Assembly: GCA_001804705.1 (NCBI GenBank)
Contig: MHAY01000063.1
Location: 1-34,484, forward strand
Direction: 5' to 3'
DNA: 34,484 nt
From: Ignavibacteria bacterium RIFOXYC2_FULL_35_21
GTDB taxonomy: Bacteria; Bacteroidota; Ignavibacteria; Kapaibacteriales; UBA2268
The first letter of the stretch is position 1. Every line of letters begins with the position of its first letter. The notes under the pieces are model-generated. The model saw only the letters and a list, made by a program, of their open reading frames with translations, had not been told where the DNA came from and made no database searches. Shown in pieces: positions 1,713-19,261 of this stretch. Both the position numbers and the translations under genes were made by a program.

Positions 1713-2564
1713 TTATGCAATCAATCTCAGAACATTTATACTGTTTTCAATATATCCCGGTAAAACAAGATGCCTGATAATCAAACCCGATATGGCTAAT
1801 CCATTTCCATCAATACTTAGAAAATCCCCTTTTTGCTTGTACATTTCCTTGATTGAATCTAGAGCAATCTCTCTATAATTTGATACATCAGAAAATTCTT
1901 TTGCAAGATTATTATCAGAATATTTGAAGTCCGGAAGATAAATGTCAATCATACCCTCGAGGGATTTAATTGTTTCAACCTTGTCAAAAGCATTAGTATT
2001 CATTACAAAAGTAGGCTTGTATCCTTCATCGGGAATTGTCTTAATTATCAGCTTCTTATGGGGCCTATGATGTGAAGGGGAGACGAAACCAACAGACTGA
2101 CAGCCATTTTCAAGGCATTTAATTATTTCAGAAATTATTTTTTCAATGTTATTAAATATTTTTTTATTACTATTTAATCCGTAACTCGTAATAATGTCAC
2201 CCTGAGCTAAGTCGAAGGGCCTCGATTCATTATTGGATTTGTGCTGACTAATTTGATAGTTTTGACAATAAATACATTGAAGATTACAACTCGAAAAAAA
2301 GACATTACAAATTCCATTTTCTCCCGATACAACCGGCTCTTCTCCTTTATGAACACAAATTGATGATATGTTGAATGAAGCATCACTTTTGCAGTATCCA
2401 AGTTTTTTTGAATACCTGTTTACTCCACATTCACGTGGGCATTGTTTGCAATTTCCAAGTTCATTTATAAAAAAGGGTATGGGGGACTGGGTTTGGGGTA
2501 TGGAAAATCCATCCCCCAATCCCCAACCCCTATTCCCCAAAATTTTTAATTCAGCACTCATCAT
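1713..2564 (-). CDS. PflX-type radical SAM protein (COG1313-like), truncated by nonsense codon
   Basis: 283 residues. An N-terminal Cys cluster (CKQCPRECGVNR) is followed by EEPVVSGENG and the radical SAM motif CNLQCIYC (CxxxCxxC, 4Fe-4S ligands), then QNYQIS, DIYLPDFKY and IRHLVLPG. This order is typical of PflX, a homologue of the pyruvate formate-lyase activating enzyme with no settled substrate. It ends early at LRLIA; the missing C-terminus is the frame at 1428-1682. Three repeats mark the gene: a G/C-run block encodes residues about 9-30, a composite repeat encodes the RPFDLAQGDI segment, and a heptamer array covers the far 3' end. The ATG lies 9 bases after the acylase stop, so it is probably co-transcribed. 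No later ATG precedes the first Cys cluster, hence this start. Whether the product is active is open. Confidence 0.75.
   Translation of the reverse strand: MMSAELKILGNRGWGLGDGFSIPQTQSPIPFFINELGNCKQCPRECGVNRYSKKLGYCKSDASFNISSICVHKGEEPVVSGENGICNVFFSSCNLQCIYCQNYQISQHKSNNESRPFDLAQGDIITSYGLNSNKKIFNNIEKIISEIIKCLENGCQSVGFVSPSHHRPHKKLIIKTIPDEGYKPTFVMNTNAFDKVETIKSLEGMIDIYLPDFKYSDNNLAKEFSDVSNYREIALDSIKEMYKQKGDFLSIDGNGLAISGLIIRHLVLPGYIENSINVLRLIA
2172..2221 (-). repeat. Composite palindrome-heptamer repeat inside pflX
   Basis: Read on the minus strand: CCCTTCGAC-TT-AGCTCAGGG, then TGACATTATT, then degenerate heptamers ATTACGA/GTTACGG/ATTAAAT. It encodes RPFDLAQGDIITSYGLN in frame. A second copy at 11943-11990 in the 2-oxoglutarate dehydrogenase gene matches at 41 of 48 aligned positions (counted by hand) and is read in the same frame (RPFDKAQGDIILNYELN). 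Confidence 0.85.
2475..2538. repeat. Back-to-back G-run / C-run block (G-quadruplex motifs on both strands)
   Basis: On the plus strand, bases 2475-2498 read G3-TAT-G5-ACT-G3-TTT-G4, and 2513-2538 read C5-AAT-C4-AA-C4-TATT-C4. Each half therefore meets the G3+N1-7 quadruplex pattern, one on each strand. The minus-strand (mRNA-sense) G-runs fall within about the first 18 codons of pflX. The two halves are also imperfectly complementary. Very unusual in this AT-rich sequence. Similar CCCCAATCCCCAACCCC strings occur as dispersed repeats in other bacteria (from memory). Confidence 0.85.
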
Positions 2565-2573
2565 TCAACATTT

Positions 2574-5174
2574 TCAACGTTGAGTAGGTTCAAAAAAAGT
2601 TCTCAGTTTAAACGAACTACCAGGTTCTTTTGAAACAGGCAATGCAATATACCCGCCATTAAGCCATAATTGTACCTGGTTACTGTAATAGTCGCTGAAT
2701 GGGTCCCCGGAAATGCCTCCCGCTATTGAAGTATATACCACCGTATCACCCATATCCGCTATAAACCTCATGCTTGGCCCCGACACAATTTTATATGGTT
2801 CACTTAAGTTCCATTCCATGGCATTAATTGTCGTATTGCTTCCGCCAGATTCAAAAGGCTCCAAATTGCTCGCACTCTTTATCAGATTGTTAAATGAAAG
2901 TATGTGTTTTAATTCGATTTTATTATTTGTCCCATATTTCCACAAATTAATATCCTCATTACCATACATGTTTTTCAAATCCTCAACTGCTTCCTTGAAA
3001 CTCTTTTGAATAATATAATCCTTTTCTTCATAATCTGAAGTTCTGACGTTATCAAACCAGCTTGAAGATACCGTATCGGCAACAAGTTCCATGATTCTTC
3101 CTGGTGGCAGGTTCGATACTGAAATGAATTGATTAAATAAATTTTCTCCAAGCTCATCTTCAAACGTATTCTTAATGAGTCTGATTAGAAATTGTGAAAA
3201 GAGCATAGGAGAAGCTGTGTGCTGCGACATTAAACAATCCCATTTTTTGAGTTTTCTGAGGGCTTGTCTTTGTAACTCGTTCAACCTTTCGGGTTGTTTT
3301 TGTATTGATGGTATGGTGCAATCTAATAATTCTTTCGCAAATGACGAATATACGTCCAACTGCATGATTTCAGCTTCCCTTGAATTATACTCATCATATA
3401 AATTCAACAAATTATTAATTCTCTGCATCCTTGATGAATTTTCCCAATAGCATGATATATAATTTGGCTCATATCTCCATAATTTATTATTAGCAGCTGA
3501 GACAAAACGTTTTGGCGGGTTGTAAAGAGTTGGAAGGTCATTCAATTTTTTATAGCCTAGCCAGTTATAGCCGCGTATCCATCCCGGATTTGGAATCTGA
3601 GGCTTACATTCTTTGTCCCTTATCGGAATCGCCCCTGTTGCTGATAATCCTATGTTACCGGACTTGTCGGCATAAATAAAATTTACAGAAGGAATTCCCC
3701 AGGAATTTATTGCGTCTCTGAATTGGAACCAGTTTTTTGCCCTAGTGAGTTTGTATAAAGCATCAAACTCGTATGATGTTTTATTTCCCAACCAATTAAA
3801 AGTGATGCAATATTTTTTTATAAAATTTTGTTTAAAATTATCTTTTTTATCATTAATAATATTATAATGATTTTTTATATTGTTTAATTCGTTCAGAACT
3901 GCAGAGCGTTGTGAGTATTTTCTATAATAAACATAATTTTCAGAATCTTTTATTTTTACAGTATCTTTTACATAATTAAAACGAATTCGCTGGCCATTTG
4001 GAGTGAAATAATAATTAGTATCTGCATCAATTTTTTCAATAAAGAAGTCGCAGTCATCAAGATTCATGTTTGAATAGCCCCATGAAATGTTATTGTTCCT
4101 TCCTGAAAAAATAAAAGGAATGCCTGGTATAGTTAGTCCGATTACATTTATTGTAGGACATGTGGCATGAATTTGATACCATTGAGAAGGTAAGCCTAAT
4201 GGCATATGGGAGTCATTAGCAAGTATTGCAGGTGATTTGGTTTTCTTTGCTTTTTTAATAGCCCAAATATTACTTCCTTTAGAGTTTCCATCCATCCCAA
4301 TACTCATCCTTATAGCATTTAATTCTTGACCGGTATGAACAAGAAGATTCAATTTTTGTCTATCTTTTTTAATTGTTTTAAATGTAGAGACAGGCCTAAG
4401 GCCTGTCTCTACAATATTTAGTTTTTTCTCTAAAAATGATTCTGTTCCAACATTAAAATTAGTATCCTGAATTTGTTGCTTTTTCTTAACTGTTATTGCA
4501 GGGTATGATGAATCGAGAATACAGGGTGCTTGTGCCGGATAAGATGGTAATAACTCCAAAGCTCTTATAGGCCCGAGCCTTTCAGCAATTGCTCCATTCG
4601 TTATATCAGCCCAAAAACTAACACTCAATTCAAGAGCTATTAGCCTCTGAATAATTATACAATCTATAGGACTCCAATTATCAGGTGTGTAATCAAGTAC
4701 ACAAAATTCGTAAGGTAATTTTTTCTTGTTTTGTGCAATGAAATAATTAATTCCATTAGAGTAAGAATTCAACAATTCAAGTGTTGTCTTATTTATTCTT
4801 TTATTAATCTCATGAGCAGTTTTTTCAATTTCAATTGCTCTCATAAATATATCTACACTTAAGGAGGTTTTCCCGAAGATTTCCGATAGTCTGCCTTTAC
4901 CTAACCGTCTTAAATAATCCATCTGCCAAAGCCTGTCCTGTGCATGTGCATATCCAATAGCAAAAAATAAATCTTTTTCGTTATTTGCTATAATATGAGG
5001 AATTCCGTATAAATTTCTATAGATTTTCACTTGGGAATTGATTTGGCCAGTTTTATTCTCCTCATAATCATCAGGCAGGGACACATTGGCAATGTGTTTG
5101 AGAAATAAAAAAACAGATATAATAAGTATTAAAGATGATATAATTATAGCAGCAAATTTTTTAAAAAATTCCAT
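2574..5174 (-). CDS. Penicillin acylase family Ntn hydrolase (penicillin amidase-like)
   Basis: 867 residues from the ATG at 5174, with an N-terminal hydrophobic segment (about residues 5-26) indicating export or membrane anchoring. The alpha-chain region shows VKIYRNLYGIPHI, YAHAQDRLWQMDYLRRLGKGRLSE (in two parts: AHAQDRLWQMD, RLGKGRLSE). The nucleophile is Ser301 in GSNIWAI (codon 4272-4274), which after autocleavage becomes the beta-chain N-terminus; HMPLGLPSQWYQIH and SWGYSNMNLDDCDFF follow, as in the family. Substrate unknown; members cleave amide bonds of beta-lactams, acyl-homoserine lactones or other amides. A longer start at 5198 would overlap the epimerase gene; 5174 lies just past the epimerase stop, so I prefer it. 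A 31-bp palindrome (4383-4413) encodes residues about 254-264, in the spacer normally removed between alpha and beta chains. Confidence 0.88.
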   Translation of the reverse strand: MEFFKKFAAIIISSLILIISVFLFLKHIANVSLPDDYEENKTGQINSQVKIYRNLYGIPHIIANNEKDLFFAIGYAHAQDRLWQMDYLRRLGKGRLSEIFGKTSLSVDIFMRAIEIEKTAHEINKRINKTTLELLNSYSNGINYFIAQNKKKLPYEFCVLDYTPDNWSPIDCIIIQRLIALELSVSFWADITNGAIAERLGPIRALELLPSYPAQAPCILDSSYPAITVKKKQQIQDTNFNVGTESFLEKKLNIVETGLRPVSTFKTIKKDRQKLNLLVHTGQELNAIRMSIGMDGNSKGSNIWAIKKAKKTKSPAILANDSHMPLGLPSQWYQIHATCPTINVIGLTIPGIPFIFSGRNNNISWGYSNMNLDDCDFFIEKIDADTNYYFTPNGQRIRFNYVKDTVKIKDSENYVYYRKYSQRSAVLNELNNIKNHYNIINDKKDNFKQNFIKKYCITFNWLGNKTSYEFDALYKLTRAKNWFQFRDAINSWGIPSVNFIYADKSGNIGLSATGAIPIRDKECKPQIPNPGWIRGYNWLGYKKLNDLPTLYNPPKRFVSAANNKLWRYEPNYISCYWENSSRMQRINNLLNLYDEYNSREAEIMQLDVYSSFAKELLDCTIPSIQKQPERLNELQRQALRKLKKWDCLMSQHTASPMLFSQFLIRLIKNTFEDELGENLFNQFISVSNLPPGRIMELVADTVSSSWFDNVRTSDYEEKDYIIQKSFKEAVEDLKNMYGNEDINLWKYGTNNKIELKHILSFNNLIKSASNLEPFESGGSNTTINAMEWNLSEPYKIVSGPSMRFIADMGDTVVYTSIAGGISGDPFSDYYSNQVQLWLNGGYIALPVSKEPGSSFKLRTFFEPTQR
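4383..4413. repeat. Perfect palindrome TGTAGAGACAGGCCT-A-AGGCCTGTCTCTACA within the acylase gene
   Basis: Fifteen-base arms (TGTAGAGACAGGCCT and its exact reverse complement) around a single central A at 4398. Translated in frame on the minus strand it gives VETGLRPVST. Its ends (TGTAG-R-G-R-CAG) match the palindromes at 17454-17521, so these appear to be one family with a variable core. Confidence 0.9.
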
Positions 5175-5175
5175 T

Positions 5176-6162
5176 CTACAACCATTCGTTATTGACATAC
5201 CATCTAATTGTGTCCAGTACGGCTTCTTCAGGGCTGAATTTCGTACTAAAATTAAAATCTTTTTTTGCGTTTTCTACTGAACATACCCAATATTTCTGTA
5301 TAAAGTCCCTGCCTTTGTCAAGATTGAATGGATGGGGTTTTCCAGCAATTTTTCTGATTTGCTCAAATGTAAATGCTGCAGAAAGAACAAAAAAGTGAGG
5401 GAAGCGGATATTAAATGTAAAATTTCTGTTTAACTCCTTTTTTGCAAGAGTCATTATTTCATTCCATGAGACAGGTTTTTCATCGGCAACGTAGTAAATT
5501 TTACCAATTGTATTCTCCGAAACCGCTGCACTGAATGTCGCTTCAGCAAGGTCACTTGCATGAATTAAATTCAGATATTTTGGTTTCATTCCAATCAACA
5601 CGACTATACGTTTTTTTATTGATTTAAAAAGTGTAAATATTGCCGTATCACGCGGCCCAACAACTGCCGAGGGCCTTAGAATAGTAACCGGGAAAAATTT
5701 GCCATACTCCAGCACTGAGTCTTCGGCTTCTTTTTTGCTTTTTGCATAAGTTGTTAATGGTGATGGAGTATTTGATTCGTTAACGGGTAGGGATAGTGAT
5801 TTTGCTGGGCCGCCAACACTTTGACTGCTAATAAAGACAAATCTTTTTAGGTTAGGAGAATGTTCTAAAGCAGATTTGAGCAGGTTGATTGTGCCATCAC
5901 GATTGACACGAAAGAAATCCTCAGGTTTATTTGCCATGATTGTGCCACCGCAATGGATAATGTAATCTACATCTTTGAGTGCTTGTGATAAAGAATTGGA
6001 ATCGAATAGGGAGTATTTAACCAAATCAAATGGTTTATCTCTTAGCCATTGGATATTACTATGCTCTCTAAAACCGCAGCGAACCTGAAAGCCATGGCTG
6101 AATAATACGTCGGCTATATGGCTTCCAATGAATCCTGTTGCACCTGTTACAAAAGCAATCAT
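5176..6162 (-). CDS. NAD(P)-dependent epimerase/dehydratase (extended SDR family)
   Basis: 328 residues. The Rossmann nucleotide-binding motif GATGFIGS is at residues 7-14. The family's VDYIIHCGG follows, then FISSQSVGG (catalytic Ser region) and the YxxxK pair in TTYAKSKKEAED, then LRPSAVVGPRD. The closest groups by eye are 3-beta-HSD-like and UDP-sugar epimerase-like reductases; the true substrate (nucleotide sugar, sterol-like or dihydroflavonol-like) cannot be read from the sequence. It heads the minus-strand group epimerase-acylase-pflX and is divergent from the sugar nucleotidyltransferase gene. That neighbour makes a nucleotide-sugar role attractive but unproven. Confidence 0.85.
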   Translation of the reverse strand: MIAFVTGATGFIGSHIADVLFSHGFQVRCGFREHSNIQWLRDKPFDLVKYSLFDSNSLSQALKDVDYIIHCGGTIMANKPEDFFRVNRDGTINLLKSALEHSPNLKRFVFISSQSVGGPAKSLSLPVNESNTPSPLTTYAKSKKEAEDSVLEYGKFFPVTILRPSAVVGPRDTAIFTLFKSIKKRIVVLIGMKPKYLNLIHASDLAEATFSAAVSENTIGKIYYVADEKPVSWNEIMTLAKKELNRNFTFNIRFPHFFVLSAAFTFEQIRKIAGKPHPFNLDKGRDFIQKYWVCSVENAKKDFNFSTKFSPEEAVLDTIRWYVNNEWL

Positions 6163-6163
6163 A

Positions 6164-6182
6164 TAATAATTATGAATTATTA
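6164..6182. promoter_or_regulatory. Inverted repeat in the divergent intergenic region
   Basis: TAATAATT-ATG-AATTATTA, a perfect 8-bp inverted repeat, immediately upstream of the epimerase ATG. The 169-base divergent region (6163-6331) must hold promoters for both the epimerase and the nucleotidyltransferase genes. I could not assign -7/-33 boxes with confidence. AT-only symmetry of this kind may be chance. Confidence 0.25.
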
Positions 6183-6331
6183 GTACTAATTTTTATAAAA
6201 CTGTAATAAAAAAGTTATGCAAGATATTAAAATCCAAATAAAAGGGAGTAAAAAAAGGTTTGAATTAAGTTTATAAAATCAATAAATTGCAACTCACATA
6301 TTTCAATATATAATATCTATATACGGATAAA

Positions 6332-8839
6332 ATGATGAATAAAGCTGTTATTATGGCGGGGGGATTTGGCACAAGGCTCAGGCCACTGACTGCAAGCCTG
6401 CCAAAACCAATGGTGCCTATAGTGAACCGGCCGATGCTGGAACATATAATTGACCTGCTCAAAAGTTATAATATTAAAGATATTGTTTGTGTTTTATATT
6501 ATCAGCCGGAGGTGATTACCACTTATTTCGAGGATGGTACTAAGTTTGGTGTAAATATTAAGTATGTTCTGGCTAATGCTGATTACGGCACTGCCGGTGC
6601 TGTGAAAAACGCTTTTGAGTATCTCGACCAAAGATTCATTGTCATCAGTGGGGATGTTCTTACAGACTTTAATTTGTTTTCTGCTCTCGACTTTCATATT
6701 AAAAATGATTCAAAGTCTACAGTGTTATTGACTCGTGTGAGTGAGCCGTTACAATATGGTATTGTTATTACAGATGAAATTGGAAAGATAACAAGTTTTC
6801 TTGAAAAACCTTCTTGGGGAGAAGTTTTTTCTGATACAATAAATACCGGAATCTATATACTCGAACCGGATGTATTGGATTTAATCCCTTATCATGAGGA
6901 GTTCGATTTTAGTAAAGATTTATTTCCGCTTATGCTAAGGCAAAATATGCCGCTATATGGACATATCACAGATGGTTATTGGAAGGATATAGGGAATCTT
7001 AATGAATATCAATCGGGGCAAAAGGATGCTTTGAACGGGGAAGTAAATCTGAAGATTAAAGGAATAACAAAAGCTAATTATATCATAGGTGAAAACACAA
7101 AAATAGCAGCTACGGCAGTTCTTAAAGGAACGGTTATAATTGATAATGGGGTAACAATCGGAGAACATGCAACTTTGATAAATTGTATAATCGGGAAAAA
7201 TGTGTCTATCGGGAATGGTTCCAAGCTTTCGGGTGTTACTTTGTGGGAAAATGTAAAAATCGGTGATTTTGCAGAATTGACAGATGACGTAGTTTGTAAT
7301 GATTGTTATATCGGAGATAATGCAACTATTCACGAGAATGTATTTATTGCAGAAAATTGCAGAATTGGAGATAATGCAACATTGATGTCGAATATAAAGC
7401 TATGGCCCAATAAGCATATTGAAGAGGGTGCAACGCTCTCCAGGTCAATGGTTCAGGAGGAAAAATGGATTCGGGAACTATTTACAGATGCAAGGATATC
7501 AGGATTATCGAATATAGAAATTAATCCCGAGTTCGGAGCTAAACTTGGAGCTGCTATTGGAATGACATTTGGAAAGAATTCTACATTAATTGCGAGCCGT
7601 GACCCTGACATCGTATCGAGAATAATGAAAAGAACAATAACAGCAGGCATATCATCCGTAGGAGTAAATGTTAACGATTTGCAAACGGTTTCGATTCCAC
7701 AGACGAGGCAGGAACTGAGAACAGGAAAGTATGCGGGAGGTTTTCATGTACGTCGCTCACCGAGGAATCCCGACAAGAGCGACATAATAATTTTTAATAA
7801 GGAAGGGCGTGATATACAGATTGCCCGTACAAAGGCGATTGAGAGGTATTTTTTCGGGGAAGAGATAAAGCGGGTTCATTATGACAGCGTTGGGCATATT
7901 TATTATCCTGAAAGAACGAATGAGATTTATATAAACAGGTTTCTTGAATCACTTAAGAAGGAAAGGATAATTGAAAAAAGGTTCAAAATACTTGTTGATT
8001 ATTCTTATGGACTGGCATCGACTATTATGCCTTACATTCTCGGGAAACTGAATGTTGAAGCATTGTCTCTTCATGATTATGTGGACGCTACAAGGTATCA
8101 GCCCGACCCAACGATGACAAAACCCGGGAGCGATGAATCGGAAAAAGTGATGAAGGCACTTGGGTATGGGCTTGGGTTTAAGATTGAACCGGGGGCCGAA
8201 AAAGTCGGATTGATTGACGAGAGGGGAGTGTTTTATAATCCGCTAAGGCTGTTGACTATATTTATAAAGTTGTTTCTGGAAACACACAGGGACAGGGAGC
8301 CATATAAAATAGCAGTATCGGTGTTTGCCAGTAAAGAGATTGAAATGACAGCAAATAAATATGATGTGGAAGTGATTAGAATAAAAAATTCGCATTCGGC
8401 GATGATGGAAGCGACAAGGGAAAAAAACTTGTTATTTGTCGGTGGTATATGGGGTGGATTTATTTTCAGTGATTTTTTGTTTGCTTCCGACGGGATGTTT
8501 ACATTAGGGAAAACGCTTGAGATGTTAGCTGTATCGGGAATGAGCATATCGGAACTTGACATGAGTTTACCAAAACGGTATCAACACCATATAAGCATAA
8601 ACTGTCCATGGTCGTATAAGGGTTCGGTTATGAGGAAAGCTATGGAACATTCGGAGAAAATGGACAGGGAGTTAATCGAGGGAGTAAAACTAAATATTGA
8701 CGGGGATTCTGTGCTGCTTGTGCCTGACAAGGAGAGGGCGGCATTTAGTGTTATTTCGGAGAGTGATAATTACGAGGGTGCAGTTGTATTGGGTAAGAAG
8801 TATTCCAATTTGATTTCTCAGTGGAGAGATGACAGATAG
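6332..8839 (+). CDS. Sugar-1-phosphate nucleotidyltransferase / phosphomannomutase-like fusion (GDP-mannose type)
   Basis: 835 residues. Residues 1-235 are a nucleotidyltransferase domain with AGGFGTRLRPLT and LPKPMVPI (nucleotide and metal binding) and GDVLTDFNL. Residues about 250-375 hold left-handed beta-helix hexapeptide repeats (IGENTKI, IGEHATL, IGDNATI). Residues about 385-835 are a phosphohexomutase domain. Related fusions in cyanobacteria and Chlorobi-like bacteria are annotated mannose-1-phosphate guanylyltransferase/phosphomannomutase. The mutase half is degenerate: the TASHNP-type serine loop reads RRSPRNP (Ser476) and the DGDGDR metal loop reads EPGAEK (619-624). Mutase activity is therefore doubtful, and a regulatory or structural role is possible. 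Starts at MMNKAVIM; ATG 6335 is equally possible. Likely supplies GDP-mannose-type sugars for surface glycans. Confidence 0.85.
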   Translation: MMNKAVIMAGGFGTRLRPLTASLPKPMVPIVNRPMLEHIIDLLKSYNIKDIVCVLYYQPEVITTYFEDGTKFGVNIKYVLANADYGTAGAVKNAFEYLDQRFIVISGDVLTDFNLFSALDFHIKNDSKSTVLLTRVSEPLQYGIVITDEIGKITSFLEKPSWGEVFSDTINTGIYILEPDVLDLIPYHEEFDFSKDLFPLMLRQNMPLYGHITDGYWKDIGNLNEYQSGQKDALNGEVNLKIKGITKANYIIGENTKIAATAVLKGTVIIDNGVTIGEHATLINCIIGKNVSIGNGSKLSGVTLWENVKIGDFAELTDDVVCNDCYIGDNATIHENVFIAENCRIGDNATLMSNIKLWPNKHIEEGATLSRSMVQEEKWIRELFTDARISGLSNIEINPEFGAKLGAAIGMTFGKNSTLIASRDPDIVSRIMKRTITAGISSVGVNVNDLQTVSIPQTRQELRTGKYAGGFHVRRSPRNPDKSDIIIFNKEGRDIQIARTKAIERYFFGEEIKRVHYDSVGHIYYPERTNEIYINRFLESLKKERIIEKRFKILVDYSYGLASTIMPYILGKLNVEALSLHDYVDATRYQPDPTMTKPGSDESEKVMKALGYGLGFKIEPGAEKVGLIDERGVFYNPLRLLTIFIKLFLETHRDREPYKIAVSVFASKEIEMTANKYDVEVIRIKNSHSAMMEATREKNLLFVGGIWGGFIFSDFLFASDGMFTLGKTLEMLAVSGMSISELDMSLPKRYQHHISINCPWSYKGSVMRKAMEHSEKMDRELIEGVKLNIDGDSVLLVPDKERAAFSVISESDNYEGAVVLGKKYSNLISQWRDDR

Positions 8840-8842
8840 TCA

Positions 8843-8874
8843 ATTACGAATTACGAATTACGAATTACGAATGA
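8843..8874. repeat. Four perfect ATTACGA heptamers plus ATGA
   Basis: Four exact ATTACGA units (8843-8870) followed by ATGA, starting 3 bases after the stop of the nucleotidyltransferase fusion. The identical 32-base block recurs inside the 2-oxoglutarate dehydrogenase gene at 9687-9718, and a decayed four-unit version lies at 9406-9437. Confidence 0.95.
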
Positions 8875-8938
8875 AGGGTTATTATAATTTTGAATTGTGG
8901 TTATATAATTATTCATTAGATTTTGAATTGAGGAATGT

Positions 8939-9400
8939 ATGAGGCTTGAAGAAATATTAGCTGTTGATGCTATTGAAGTAAATATTGGAGTGAAGGACAA
9001 ATCGGAATTGCTTGCCAGAATGGTTGAATTGGCGGCGAAATCGGGAAGGGTGAATAACCGGGAAGAGGTTCTTAAAGACATAATTGAGCGAGAGAGGCTG
9101 ATGTCAACGGGTATAGGTAAAGGGATTGCTTTGCCTCATGCAAAGACGAATGGGGTTGATGATACTGTGGGTTCGTTTGTTATATTAAGGGATGTGTTGG
9201 ATTTTGAATCGCTGGATGGTGAACCTGTTAAGCTTGCTTTTATGCTCCTTGGGAGAGAGGCTAATGTGGGGCTACACCTGAGGATATTGAGTAAGATATC
9301 GAGGATTTTGAATGATGATGAATATAAGGAAAGAATTTTGAGTATGGGAAGTGGAATGGAACTGATTGATTTTTTTAAAAATTTAGAGGAAGAGGAGTAA
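8939..9400 (+). CDS. PTS EIIA domain protein (PtsN/EIIA-Ntr-like)
   Basis: 153 residues, a single EIIA domain of the fructose/nitrogen type. The phosphorylatable histidine is His67 in GIALPHAKT, preceded by the typical MSTGIGKG. AFMLLGREANVGLHLRIL and the C-terminal SKISRIL helix fit the family. A good Shine-Dalgarno sequence (GAGG, seven or so bases before ATG 8939) supports the start. No PTS permease genes lie nearby, so a regulatory role through PTSNtr-type phosphorelay, or control of a target protein, is more likely than sugar uptake. It sits between a sugar-nucleotide gene and a TCA-cycle gene, flanked on both sides by ATTACGA repeats. Confidence 0.9.
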   Translation: MRLEEILAVDAIEVNIGVKDKSELLARMVELAAKSGRVNNREEVLKDIIERERLMSTGIGKGIALPHAKTNGVDDTVGSFVILRDVLDFESLDGEPVKLAFMLLGREANVGLHLRILSKISRILNDDEYKERILSMGSGMELIDFFKNLEEEE

Positions 9401-9405
9401 CATTA

Positions 9406-9437
9406 ATTACGAATTATTAATTACTAAATACTAATGA
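9406..9437. repeat. Decayed four-unit ATTACGA heptamer block plus ATGA
   Basis: Units ATTACGA, ATTATTA, ATTACTA, AATACTA, then ATGA: the same 4 x 7 + 4 layout as 8843-8874 and 9687-9718. It starts 6 bases after the EIIA stop. A further short match (TTACGAATGAAGG) at 9515-9527 precedes the next gene. Confidence 0.75.
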
Positions 9438-9539
9438 AATTTCTGATAAACTCTTTGCTATTATAAATAATAAGAATTTGTTTTTACCGTCCCTAATAAG
9501 TTACAAAATAAGATTTACGAATGAAGGATAATAATAATT

Positions 9540-12500
9540 ATGATAGATTTGAATACAGCGTTTGAGGATGAGATTTATGAGGAATACCTGAGGGACCGTC
9601 TTTCGGTGAGTCCGGCATGGAGGGATTATTTTGATAAGAGGAATTCTAAGAGTGAAAAAAGATATGACGGGACGGAAGAAGGATTAATTACGAATTACGA
9701 ATTACGAATTACGAATGACAAAATAAAGGATGCAGAGATGCATGGTAATGCACCTGTACTAATTGAGGCAGGTGAGGAAGCTGTTCAGATGCCGGCGATA
9801 CAGGCGAGGATATCGGGGAATATGGAGGAGAGCCTCGGGGTGCCGACGGCGACTTCGATGAGGGCAATACCTGTAAAGGCTTTGGACGAGAACCGCAGGG
9901 TAATCAATAAATATTTGGGGAAGCTGAAGAGGGAGAAGGTGTCGTTTACGCATTTGATGGGATGGGCAATTGTTAAGGGATTGGAAAAGTATCCTCAAAT
10001 GAATTACGGATATGCTCTGAAGGACGGGAAACCGCATTATCTGAAAAGGAATAAAATCAACCTGGGTTTTGCAGTTGACATTATAAAGAAGGACGGAACG
10101 AGGCTGTTGCTGGTACCAAATTTGAAGGGTGTGGAAGAAATGAATTTTTCGGAGTTTATCGAGGGGTATGATGATTTAATCAGGAAGACGAGGGATAATA
10201 AGTTGAGTGTGGATGAGCTGGCAGGGACAACAGTGAGTATAACAAATCCGGGTATGATAGGGACAACTGCTTCGACGCCGAGGTTGATGAAGGGACAGGG
10301 TTTGATAGTTGCAGTGGGTGCGATCGAGTATCCGACGGAGTTTCAGGCAGTGAGGCCGGAAGTTATGACTTCGCTTGCAATATCCAAAGTAGTGAATATA
10401 ACAAGTACGTATGACCACAGGATTATCCAGGGAGCAGAATCGGCAGAATTTCTTGCATACATTCACAGGCTTTTGATAGGTGAAAATCATTTTTATGACC
10501 AGATATTTGCTTCATTAAAAATACCATTCGAACCAATCAGATGGACTAATGACAATACGGTAATTGATGCATTTGGAAGGGTTGACGAAAGAGAAGCAAT
10601 AGAAAAAGCGGCTCATGTAATGTTGATGATAAATGCATACCGTGTAAGGGGACATCTTCTTGCATCTGTGAATCCTCTTGGCTATGAAAGTTATTATTAT
10701 CCTGAGTTAGACCCGGCATATTATGGATTTACTATATGGGACCTTGACCGGGTGTTTCATGCAGAAGACACATGGGAAAATAATAATCTACCACTCAGAG
10801 ACATAATTGAAACCTTACGTGAAACATACTGCGGTGCATCAGGATTTGAGTTTATGCACATACAGGACCCTATGAGGAAGCAATGGATTATGCGTGAGCT
10901 CGAAAAGGGAGAATTGGGTAAAGACTATTCGAATGAAGTGAGAATTGAAACATTGAGGAAGTTGACAAAATCAGAATTGTTTGAAAATTTACTTCATACA
11001 AAATTTGTTGGCAGCAAAAGGTTTTCAATTGAGGGGGGGGAATCGGTTGTTGTGATGTTGGATAAAATATTTGAAGAAGCGGCTGTTGAAGGGCTTCATG
11101 CAATAACATTAGGAATGGCACACAGGGGAAGGTTGAATGTGTTAGTAAATAATATCGGAAAGTCTATAGAAAAAATATTTGATGAATTCGAGGGCGCCAT
11201 TGACCCCGATTCATTCCATGGTTCCGGTGATGTAAAATATCACCTGGGAGATACGGGAATATATAAAACGGAAGATGGAAAAAGTGTTGAAATAATTTTG
11301 TCTCCTAATCCGAGCCATCTTGAGTTGGTCAATCCGGTTATCGAAGGTATGGCAAGGGCTTTGGAGAATGAGATTAATGACAGTAGTCATTCAAAGGTTT
11401 TACCGATACTCATCCATGGTGATTCTGCTTTTGCAGGGCAGGGTATTGTTGCTGAAACTCTGAATCTATCTCAATTGGAAGGTTTTAAGACGGGGGGAAC
11501 AATTCATATCGTTATTAACAATCAGATAGGTTTCACGACTAACATAGGAGATTCACGGTCATCAGTGTACTGCACCGATATTGGAAAGATGATACAGGCT
11601 CCAATAATACATGTTAACGGTAATGAGCCGGATGCAGTGATGAGAGCGGGTTCTTTTGCTTATGAGTACAGGAAGAAATTCGGAACGGATATAATTATTG
11701 ACATGATGTGTTACAGAAAATACGGGCATAATGAAGGCGATGAACCATCATATACTCAGCCCTTGCTATATAAGAAAATCAGGGGAATGAAGTCAGTCAG
11801 GGCATTATATGAGCTTGAACTTATTAAAGAATCTGTGATTAGTGATGATGATGCAAAAAAATTGTATGATGAGGAACATCGCCTATTAGATAATTTATTT
11901 GTTGAAAGAAAGAAAAAAAATGGGAATAATACTGAATTAAGACCCTTCGACAAAGCTCAGGGTGACATTATTCTGAATTATGAATTAAATAAAATCGCCT
12001 CAGAGCCGGGAAAAATTGTTGGGGCGAGCCATAATACAGGGAGAGAAGGAACAGAACAGTATTCTGCCGGCACATCCATATCTAAAGATATTGTAAAAAA
12101 ATTGACAAAGGTTATATCAACAATACCCGAAGGATTCAAGGCTAATCCGAAATTGATTTCTTTATTTAAGAAACGAGCCGAAATGTTTGATGAGAAAAAA
12201 GAATTGTTTGATTGGGCTATGGCAGAATTACTTTCTTTTGGTTCTATTCTAACAGATGGAAAAAATATCAGGATTACCGGTCAGGACACGAGAAGAGGTA
12301 CATTCAGCCAGAGGCATGCTGTTATTACCGATATTGAAAACAATGATAATTATGTTCCATTGAATAATTTAAAAGATGGACAGGGGAGACTAAGAATATA
12401 TGATAGTCCCCTTAGTGAACTTGCAGTGCTTGGATTTGAATACGGGTACAGCACAATTGCAATAAATGATTTGACTATTTGGGAAGCTCAATTCGGTGAC

Positions 12501-13241
12501 TTTGCAAATGGAGCTCAAGCTATCATTGACCAATTTATATCTTGTGCCGAATCGAAGTGGGGAAAGACATCAAACCTGGTATTATTACTACCACACAGTT
12601 ATGACGGACAGGGACCGGAACATTCGAGCGCCCGGCTTGAAAGATTTCTACAGCTCTGTGCCGGAAATAATATGTTCGTATGTCATCTGTCAACACCTGC
12701 TCAATATTTTCATGCTTTGAGAAGACAGGTTATGCTTAAAAATAAGAAGCCTTTAATATTGATGACACCTAAATCAATGTTGAGACATTCGCTGGCAGTT
12801 AGCGGCGTAAAAGAATTTACAGAAAAAAGTTTTGAAAATGTTATTAATGAAGTTCAATTACAAATTAAAGATATTAAAAAAGTCTTAATGTGTTCAGGCA
12901 AAATATATTACGATTTGTTATCCGAAAGAGAGAAGAATAATATAAAAGATATAGGAATAATCAGAGTTGAACAATTGTATCCCTTAGATATAAATTTATT
13001 AAAAGATATTTTGTCAAAGTATAAGAATGCAGTTGAATATTATTGGGTGCAGGAAGAACCCGAAAATCAGGGTGCATGGAGATTTGTTGAACCACAAATA
13101 AACACGGTTTTATCTGATTTATCAACCAATAACAGTATTAAATTTATTGGAAGAGGGGAATCTTCTGCTACTGCTACAGGTTCTTATCATATACATCTCG
13201 AAGAACAAACTGATATATTAAAAAATTCATTTAAAAAATGA
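9540..13241 (+). CDS. kgd: Fused E2-E1 2-oxoglutarate dehydrogenase (OdhA/Kgd type)
   Basis: 1233 residues; TCA-cycle oxidation of 2-oxoglutarate to succinyl-CoA (with E3), or decarboxylation. Residues 1-30 (DLNTAFEDEIYEEYLRDR) are the E1 N-terminal segment. Residues about 75-325 are a succinyltransferase catalytic domain with SITNPGMIG and DHRIIQGAESAEF (catalytic His293). Residues about 345-1233 are the thiamine-diphosphate E1: INAYRVRGHLLA, HRGRLNVLVN, GDVKYHLG, GDSAFAGQGIVAET, INNQIGFTT and GQGPEHSSARLERFLQL. There is no lipoyl domain, as in actinobacterial OdhA. Two dispersed repeats are in frame: ATTACGA heptamers (residues about 50-60, between the N-terminal segment and E2) and a composite palindrome element (about 802-817, encoding RPFDKAQGDIILNYEL). 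A G8 run lies at 11033-11040 in the conserved EGGES motif. E3 is not in this window. Confidence 0.92.
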   Translation: MIDLNTAFEDEIYEEYLRDRLSVSPAWRDYFDKRNSKSEKRYDGTEEGLITNYELRITNDKIKDAEMHGNAPVLIEAGEEAVQMPAIQARISGNMEESLGVPTATSMRAIPVKALDENRRVINKYLGKLKREKVSFTHLMGWAIVKGLEKYPQMNYGYALKDGKPHYLKRNKINLGFAVDIIKKDGTRLLLVPNLKGVEEMNFSEFIEGYDDLIRKTRDNKLSVDELAGTTVSITNPGMIGTTASTPRLMKGQGLIVAVGAIEYPTEFQAVRPEVMTSLAISKVVNITSTYDHRIIQGAESAEFLAYIHRLLIGENHFYDQIFASLKIPFEPIRWTNDNTVIDAFGRVDEREAIEKAAHVMLMINAYRVRGHLLASVNPLGYESYYYPELDPAYYGFTIWDLDRVFHAEDTWENNNLPLRDIIETLRETYCGASGFEFMHIQDPMRKQWIMRELEKGELGKDYSNEVRIETLRKLTKSELFENLLHTKFVGSKRFSIEGGESVVVMLDKIFEEAAVEGLHAITLGMAHRGRLNVLVNNIGKSIEKIFDEFEGAIDPDSFHGSGDVKYHLGDTGIYKTEDGKSVEIILSPNPSHLELVNPVIEGMARALENEINDSSHSKVLPILIHGDSAFAGQGIVAETLNLSQLEGFKTGGTIHIVINNQIGFTTNIGDSRSSVYCTDIGKMIQAPIIHVNGNEPDAVMRAGSFAYEYRKKFGTDIIIDMMCYRKYGHNEGDEPSYTQPLLYKKIRGMKSVRALYELELIKESVISDDDAKKLYDEEHRLLDNLFVERKKKNGNNTELRPFDKAQGDIILNYELNKIASEPGKIVGASHNTGREGTEQYSAGTSISKDIVKKLTKVISTIPEGFKANPKLISLFKKRAEMFDEKKELFDWAMAELLSFGSILTDGKNIRITGQDTRRGTFSQRHAVITDIENNDNYVPLNNLKDGQGRLRIYDSPLSELAVLGFEYGYSTIAINDLTIWEAQFGDFANGAQAIIDQFISCAESKWGKTSNLVLLLPHSYDGQGPEHSSARLERFLQLCAGNNMFVCHLSTPAQYFHALRRQVMLKNKKPLILMTPKSMLRHSLAVSGVKEFTEKSFENVINEVQLQIKDIKKVLMCSGKIYYDLLSEREKNNIKDIGIIRVEQLYPLDINLLKDILSKYKNAVEYYWVQEEPENQGAWRFVEPQINTVLSDLSTNNSIKFIGRGESSATATGSYHIHLEEQTDILKNSFKK
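9687..9718 (+). repeat. ATTACGA heptamer array inside the 2-oxoglutarate dehydrogenase gene
   Basis: Four perfect ATTACGA units plus ATGA, identical over 32 bases to 8843-8874. Read in frame as ITNYELRITND within the linker between the E1 N-terminal segment and the E2 domain. Because 28 bases is not a multiple of three, each unit gain or loss would shift the frame, so copy number here is constrained. Confidence 0.95.
11943..11990 (+). repeat. Composite palindrome-heptamer repeat inside the 2-oxoglutarate dehydrogenase gene
   Basis: CCCTTCGAC-AA-AGCTCAGGG, then TGACATTATT, then CTGAATTATGAATTAAAT. Second copy of the element at 2172-2221 (reverse strand there). Encodes RPFDKAQGDIILNYELN, in a charged, lysine-rich stretch between the two halves of the E1 part, where an insertion would probably be surface-exposed. 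Confidence 0.85.
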
Positions 13242-19223: not shown

Positions 19224-19239
19224 CCTAATTGGAGCTATC

Positions 19240-19261
19240 ACTCTGAGCGTAGTCGAAGAGT
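19240..19261. repeat. TCGAC-type palindromic repeat between prmA and the Ppx gene
   Basis: ACTCTGAGCGTAGTCGAAGAGT: five-base outer arms and the same TTCGAC / GCTCAG core as the composite repeats at 2172-2221 and 11943-11990. This copy is intergenic and lacks the heptamer tail. Strings like this are common as dispersed repeats in Bacteroidota-type genomes (from memory). Confidence 0.65.

Follow-up and report, generated by a model that had tools for sequence, protein, structure and literature searches.

Why should two unrelated genes carry nearly the same short piece of DNA in the same reading frame? The question is raised by a 34,484-nucleotide stretch of Ignavibacteria bacterium RIFOXYC2_FULL_35_21 (contig MHAY01000063.1, positions 1 to 34,484; hereafter the window). 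A 48-base segment had been noted there both in a gene for a PflX-like radical SAM protein (open reading frame, ORF, at 1713..2564, minus strand; Pfam Radical_SAM, 26.6 bits, under the cut-off of 29.5) and in the gene for SucA, a 2-oxoglutarate dehydrogenase E1 with a 2-oxoacid_dh acyltransferase domain by Pfam (9540..13241, plus strand). On recomparison the two segments are identical at 41 of 48 positions, and both encoded peptides are present in the translations of their ORFs. Each segment joins a hairpin to a degenerate heptamer tail. The hairpin in the PflX-like ORF (GCCCTTCGACTTAGCTCAGGGTGACA; 2195..2220, minus strand) reads RPFDLAQGD and has the tail TTATTACGAGTTACGGATTAAAT (2172..2194, minus strand), and the hairpin in SucA (ACCCTTCGACAAAGCTCAGGGTGACA; 11942..11967, plus strand) reads RPFDKAQGD and has the tail TTATTCTGAATTATGAATTAAAT (11968..11990, plus strand). 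A third copy, noted earlier as a palindrome alone, is also real (ACTCTTCGACTACGCTCAGAGTGAT; 19237..19261, minus strand). It has no heptamers, its outer stem differs in sequence and is still paired, and it is located between prmA and the conserved Ppx start, in what may be an N-terminal extension of the Ppx ORF.

We consider the shared element to be, more likely than not, a non-autonomous hairpin of the repetitive extragenic palindrome (REP) class that spreads by insertion, with copies in genes being tolerated and one subfamily being joined to heptamers. A scan of the whole genome (4.15 Mb in 105 contigs; labeled G000, with related genomes labeled G001 onward and fetched stretches labeled L) with the pattern CCTTCGACNNNGCTCAGGGTGAC, allowing up to 3 mismatches, gave 88 matches (43 forward and 45 reverse). 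The reversed pattern gave none, so the repeat occurs far beyond chance. The exact pattern, CTTCGACNNNGCTCAGNNTGACA, gave 68 matches against 0. A scan of the window against Rfam at gathering thresholds produced no matches.

Form and distribution of the hairpin

The 88 matches represent 76 distinct contexts, which were reduced to 70 copies by a stricter core and by collapsing near-identical neighbors. These 70, together with copies from relatives (including 15 of 40 in G001, 15 of 26 in G003, and 10 counted of 21 in G009) and from public genome contigs, make up a set of 361. The element has the layout RNNCTTCGAC-nnn-GCTCAGNNTGACA, is ~26 bases in length, and has a foot that reads TGTC on the opposite strand. 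Its stem consists of five outer pairs followed by inner mismatches, and its second position is mixed. The palindrome first described is an imperfect hairpin, the outer stem of which varies by compensating changes over a near-fixed foot. The two outer variable stem positions are paired in 329 and 321 of the 361 copies, whereas 102 and 121 would be expected if the columns varied independently. The next position outward is A-T in 249 copies and G-T in 81. The unpaired foot is TGTC in 60 of the 70 G000 copies; the first genome search placed no requirement on the first base of the foot, while its remaining bases were part of the selection criterion, as was the entire foot in the other collections. 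Beyond the hairpin, the commonest tails among the 361 copies are CTC (41), CTT (29), and TTT (23), with no CCA consensus.

Neighboring copies form dimers, the commonest of which is the head-to-head (HH) form, an inverted pair with feet outward, in each set having several dimers. Public contigs, all counts for which are among the matches listed, contain 18 HH, 9 tail-to-tail (TT), and 8 head-to-tail (HT) dimers. G000 contains 4 HH, 0 TT, and 3 HT dimers, and 4 of 14 dimers in G035 are TT. A second palindrome, CCCCCTTTGAAAAAGGGGG, occurs within 45 bases upstream of 9 of the 70 G000 hairpins and downstream of 2, and in none of 532 background windows; it was seen at loci such as L039, L056, L057, L061, and L077.

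The family had been proposed to be specific to this lineage, a proposal that its distribution contradicts. The exact pattern was found in 8 of 60 genomes, this one included (68, 40, 2, 26, 1, 21, 44, and 25 copies), and the hairpin in 56 of 395 genomes sampled in the phylum (again including this one), with up to 204 copies in a single genome. At least 117 stretches in public contigs have the pattern, of which the whole collection would be expected to yield ~7 matches by chance (from its stated size and equal base frequencies). Taxa of these copies are those of the record titles alone, and metagenome bins may be contaminated. The majority are titled Bacteroidota. Other titles are Chloroflexi, Eremiobacterota, Scalindua, Clostridia and other Firmicutes, Saccharibacteria, Patescibacteria, Ignavibacteriae, Gammaproteobacteria, Acidobacteriaceae, Gemmatimonadota, Cloacimonadota, and Spirochaetia. 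On contigs not titled Bacteroidota (two of them just 'bacterium'), 30 of 33 copies pair at both variable stem positions, as against a chance of 1 in 16, and most of these copies are therefore real. The unpaired exceptions are a Spirochaetia copy, an Oscillospiraceae copy, and one that is unnamed. The share is lower on Bacteroidota-titled contigs (98 of 130), because copies with one core mismatch were admitted.

A bias with respect to replication strand was considered and rejected. Listings for G254 and G220 suggested ten consecutive copies on the same strand, but the sequence of G254 showed an omitted opposite-strand copy 40 bases away. The 13 copies in 20 stretches of G061 are mostly in inverted pairs, with no link to GC skew.

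Copies within genes and empty sites in orthologues

As judged by long-ORF criteria, 36 of the 361 copies are intragenic, including 12 of the 70 in G000. The Pfam matches of the G000 hosts include MutS, ABC_tran (ABC-F-like), a KdtA-type Glycos_transf_N, and SMC_N (RecN-like), and the hosts also include OmpA, GGDEF, and heparinase-like proteins. Hosts elsewhere include methylmalonyl-CoA mutase, valyl-tRNA synthetase, SufBD, PPDK, RmlD, and PRAI (by Pfam). The initial annotation likened the element to Rickettsia palindromic elements (RPEs) as a dispersed repeat found in frame in unrelated proteins, and the 12 intragenic copies in G000, along with orthologues lacking the segment, bear this out. 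RPEs of the RPE-1 type are longer than this hairpin. The likeness to them is one of features, namely in-frame copies in unrelated genes and absence from orthologues, whereas the element here is only ~26 bp and 58 of its 70 copies in G000 are not in a long ORF.

A single preferred frame had also been suggested. Two are in fact used in G000, with 8 of the 12 copies reading PST.LRVT and 4 reading PFD.AQGD. The further suggestion of a single orientation relative to the host gene holds only locally: same-strand and opposite-strand copies number 12 and 0 in G000, 6 and 2 in G015, and 3 and 1 in G001, but 6 and 6 in public contigs. With orthologous sites and one close pair counted once, by hand, unique sites number 16 versus 3 in G000, G001, and G015 taken together (p 0.004), and 22 versus 9 in all sets (p 0.03).

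Comparison of orthologues reveals sites with and without the element. For SucA, 29 orthologues besides that of G000 were aligned, out of 51 other genomes with a match, and 28 of these lack the segment; the one that has it is from G001, a member of the same genus. The initial annotation would have been refuted by distant orthologues with the segment at the same place or by a lack of further copies in the genome, and neither was observed. The KdtA segment is present in G000 and G001 and absent from the other 17 of 19 aligned proteins (net gain 21 nt). The ABC-F segment occurs in G000 alone among 16 aligned proteins (the best loci, weaker ABC matches being omitted), the other 15 being without it (net gain 12 nt). 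In both cases the length gained is divisible by three and falls short of the full element, indicating a loss of target bases, whether during insertion or afterwards. In pflX, the corresponding position is occupied in G001 and G002 by a heptamer array without a hairpin, G015 (from another genus of the same family) has heptamers and a hairpin with a different and partly worn stem, and neither hairpin nor heptamers are clear in G003 and G018.

In methylmalonyl-CoA mutase, the open frames of G001 and G015 both have a copy at position 495; the two are in opposite orientation and lie within a few residues of one another in the alignment, suggesting that a tolerant site has been used more than once. 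One methylmalonyl-CoA mutase gene of G015 (L370, 163-1959) contains four hairpin copies in frame. Structure models contributed to none of our conclusions: that of the SucA fragment was unusable (mean predicted local distance difference test score, pLDDT, 32), and that of the PflX-like protein was poor (58), scoring below 50 over residues 92-138, where the insert lies.

Hairpin, heptamers, and alternative readings

Heptanucleotide tandem repeats include the cyanobacterial STRR. The heptamer half of the segment resembles these in being a dispersed 7-base tandem repeat of patchy distribution, and differs in its unit, AATTACG, which is absent from the accessible text of PMC4679880; that text describes TAACTGA arrays for which no transfer mechanism is evident. 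The window itself has two AATTACG arrays without a hairpin, one intergenic (8842..8869, plus strand) and one in frame near the N-terminus of SucA (LITNYELRITND; 9686..9713, plus strand).

The initial annotation treated palindrome and heptamers as a single composite repeat, and such a composite, mobile as one lineage-specific, protein-invading unit, is a reading that we regard as unlikely. Association was scored as a same-strand heptamer dimer within 45 bp of a hairpin, a criterion that the tail of the pflX copy is too degenerate to pass. In G000, 15 of 70 hairpins have one, as compared with 1 of 798 background windows, and only 2 of 70 have one on the opposite strand. The association is almost limited to hairpins with CC..GG stems (14 of 27 versus 1 of 43), although a single tandem array (L005-L007) supplies three of the 14. 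The junction recurs, with the consensus ATTACG|RCCCTTCG...GGTGAC|ATKATTACGAAT (inexact in some copies), and SucA and pflX share the arrangement. These features speak for a composite unit. Same-strand association was found for 3 of 54 hairpins in G015, 0 of 10 in G009, 0 of 31 in G035, and 0 of 160 in public contigs. Against a composite unit, G001 and G003 each have 0 of 15 on the same strand (and 1 of 15 on the opposite strand), the exact hairpin-plus-heptamer pattern had no matches in public contigs, and heptamers stand without a hairpin at the pflX sites of G001 and G002. Exact triple heptamers occur in 12 of 60 genomes, this one included. G010 and G018, both lacking hairpins, are rich in them, and none turned up in the hairpin-rich G015 and G035. 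Since each half is abundant in genomes without the other, hairpin and heptamer are separate families, brought together in one subfamily through either insertion into heptamers or co-amplification. One stretch of the genome (L005, 1501-1787, contig C9) has three hairpins spaced 132 bases apart, together with ATTCTGA-type heptamers, in an apparent tandem array.

Less probable still is retention of the hairpin for a function in RNA or DNA, such as a transcript end, mRNA stability, or a protein-binding site, with pairing under selection at each site. Compensating stem pairs are expected of such a function, and an orthologous site in a RidA-like gene (L052, L359) shows the same core and loop in different genera but a different stem, with a single mismatch in G015. 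Subfamily spread also yields covariation, however, and the stem has a mismatch at the KdtA site of G001. The patchy distribution (8 of 60 genomes) and the occurrence of copies in unrelated genes, on either strand elsewhere, likewise argue against a function of this kind. Separate origin of similar peptides in the two genes by coding convergence or chance is refuted by the match at the DNA level and by the 88 genomic copies as against none for the reversed pattern, and we found no point in its favor.

Comparison with REPs and a possible route of movement

We compared the hairpin, which we read as an inserting element, with the REPs described in the accessible portions of PMC3733652 (Di Nocera et al. 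2013) and PMC6006769. The former distinguishes GTAG and CGTC superfamilies and reports intragenic copies, some in repair genes. The CGTC superfamily, which is without a transposase, takes in Rickettsia RPE-4 and RPE-6 and is reported in Bacteroidetes, Chlorobi, and others. Its members have a terminal unpaired CGTC (or TGTC or CCTC), an 8-9 bp stem with A-T at positions 1-2, and a tail fitting CCA, and among them HH dimers prevail and TT dimers are rare (PMC3733652). The hairpin studied here shares the foot (with the partial selection noted above), the lack of an associated transposase at the loci examined, A-T at the first stem position in most copies, and intragenic copies, some of them in repair genes. 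It departs from them in having five outer pairs and then mismatches, a freely variable second position, and no CCA tail. Its dimers point both ways: HH is the commonest type, as in REPs, yet TT dimers account for 9 of 35 in public contigs and for 4 of the 14 in G035. Because it agrees in foot and transposase traits and not in stem length and tail, we file it as a variant of the CGTC REPs rather than a member. With the GTAG REPs and their REP-associated tyrosine transposases (RAYTs), the hairpin has in common its dispersal, imperfect pairing, 4-base foot, inverted pairs, and in-frame insertion into genes (PMC3733652, PMC6006769), but its foot is TGTC, not GT[AG]G, and no transposase was flanked by it among the loci examined. 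The REPs of Caldithrix were rejected as a match, as their motif differs in the accessible part of PMC5317091. None of six core-sequence variants of the hairpin was found in the papers searched, and searches by topic, the coverage of which left out most subscription journals, brought up no description that we recognized as this hairpin.

By analogy with REPs, the hairpin would most likely move in single-stranded form, mobilized in trans by a Y1 (HuH) transposase. The ~26-base element, with its TGTC foot, 5-bp outer stem of co-exchanging pairs, inner mismatches, and short loop, would insert at scattered sites, and copies in genes would survive where the reading frame is preserved overall and the insert falls in a part of the protein that can accommodate a loop. 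The encoded peptides (PFDxAQGD and PSTxLRVT, and VTLSxVEG and CHPExxR from the other strand) would then be by-products, which we infer to be neutral. The CC..GG subfamily would have been joined in this lineage, often at one junction, to the independent ATTACGA-type heptamers, and the SucA and pflX copies would be worn forms of that composite.

The copy number as against the reversed control, the stem covariation, the foot, the inverted dimers, the copies in long ORFs, the empty sites, and the heptamer association in G000 speak for this account. Several observations weigh against it. Y1 genes were sought in 60 related genomes with the models PF01797 and NF047646, and their co-occurrence with the hairpin is weak: 7 of 8 hairpin genomes versus 24 of 52 others for PF01797 (p 0.053), and 7 of 8 versus 31 of 52 for NF047646 (p 0.24). 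G015, which has 44 copies and is 76% complete, has no Y1 match by either model. None of the 55 Y1 loci fetched (L031-L036 and L176-L224, some overlapping, a subset of the Y1 places) has the hairpin on both sides of the gene. The net gains of 21 and 12 nt are smaller than the element, which clean transposition leaves unexplained. Single copies are predicted to fold weakly (-1.8 to -6.1 kcal/mol), making covariation the chief evidence for the hairpin, and the spread of stem subfamilies alone could yield part of that covariation.

A more ambitious proposal, that the hairpin represents a third large, TGTC-footed and transposase-less REP class of many phyla, which replaces target DNA, returns to tolerant sites, and sometimes lands in heptamer arrays, seems to us doubtful at present. 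The pflX site, with different stems in two genera, and methylmalonyl-CoA mutase near residue 495 in G001 and G015 would be examples of return to a tolerant site. REPs within genes are already known in print, and this hairpin is a variant of CGTC-like REPs without an identified transposase. The findings extend intragenic REPs to a hairpin type of several phyla, with conserved enzymes among its hosts, such as 2-oxoglutarate dehydrogenase, KdtA, and valyl-tRNA synthetase, and they account for odd peptides that recur in predicted proteins, which is useful in annotation. The empty sites among related genomes make the movement of transposase-less CGTC-like REPs testable by comparison of strains.

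Two small custom profiles detected a Y1 gene in 3 of the at least 117 public stretches. IS200-type genes of one type (146 amino acids) occur in G000 (L048, 2256-3023) and G009 (L215, 1968-2712), each with one hairpin ~300 bp downstream. The two hairpins are in opposite orientations, and that of G000 is inside a neighboring ABC-F gene, beyond the conserved insertion sequence; we presume this proximity to be chance and reject it as a link to a transposase. The clearest RAYT of this genome (contig C72, L035, 1351-1884) and a RAYT of G001 (L424) are flanked by tandem copies of a different hairpin, TGTC[AG]GGAGTAACTCC[TC]GACA, of which four further exact copies occur in other fetched stretches of G000. 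A RAYT with its own TGTC-footed hairpin of another sequence is a lead only. A RAYT-like gene (L036, 1037-1639, contig C28) has in-frame GAGSQPAP and GAGCEPAP segments and resembles the tnpA-REP genes of subclass 2.4, in which the accessible text of PMC6006769 describes in-frame internal REPs.

At the start of the PflX-like ORF, a run of GGGATTG-type heptamers (2508-2537, minus strand) falls in the predicted N-terminus, GNRGWGLGDG. The run is also found in G001 and is absent from G002, such that the true start of the protein may be downstream.

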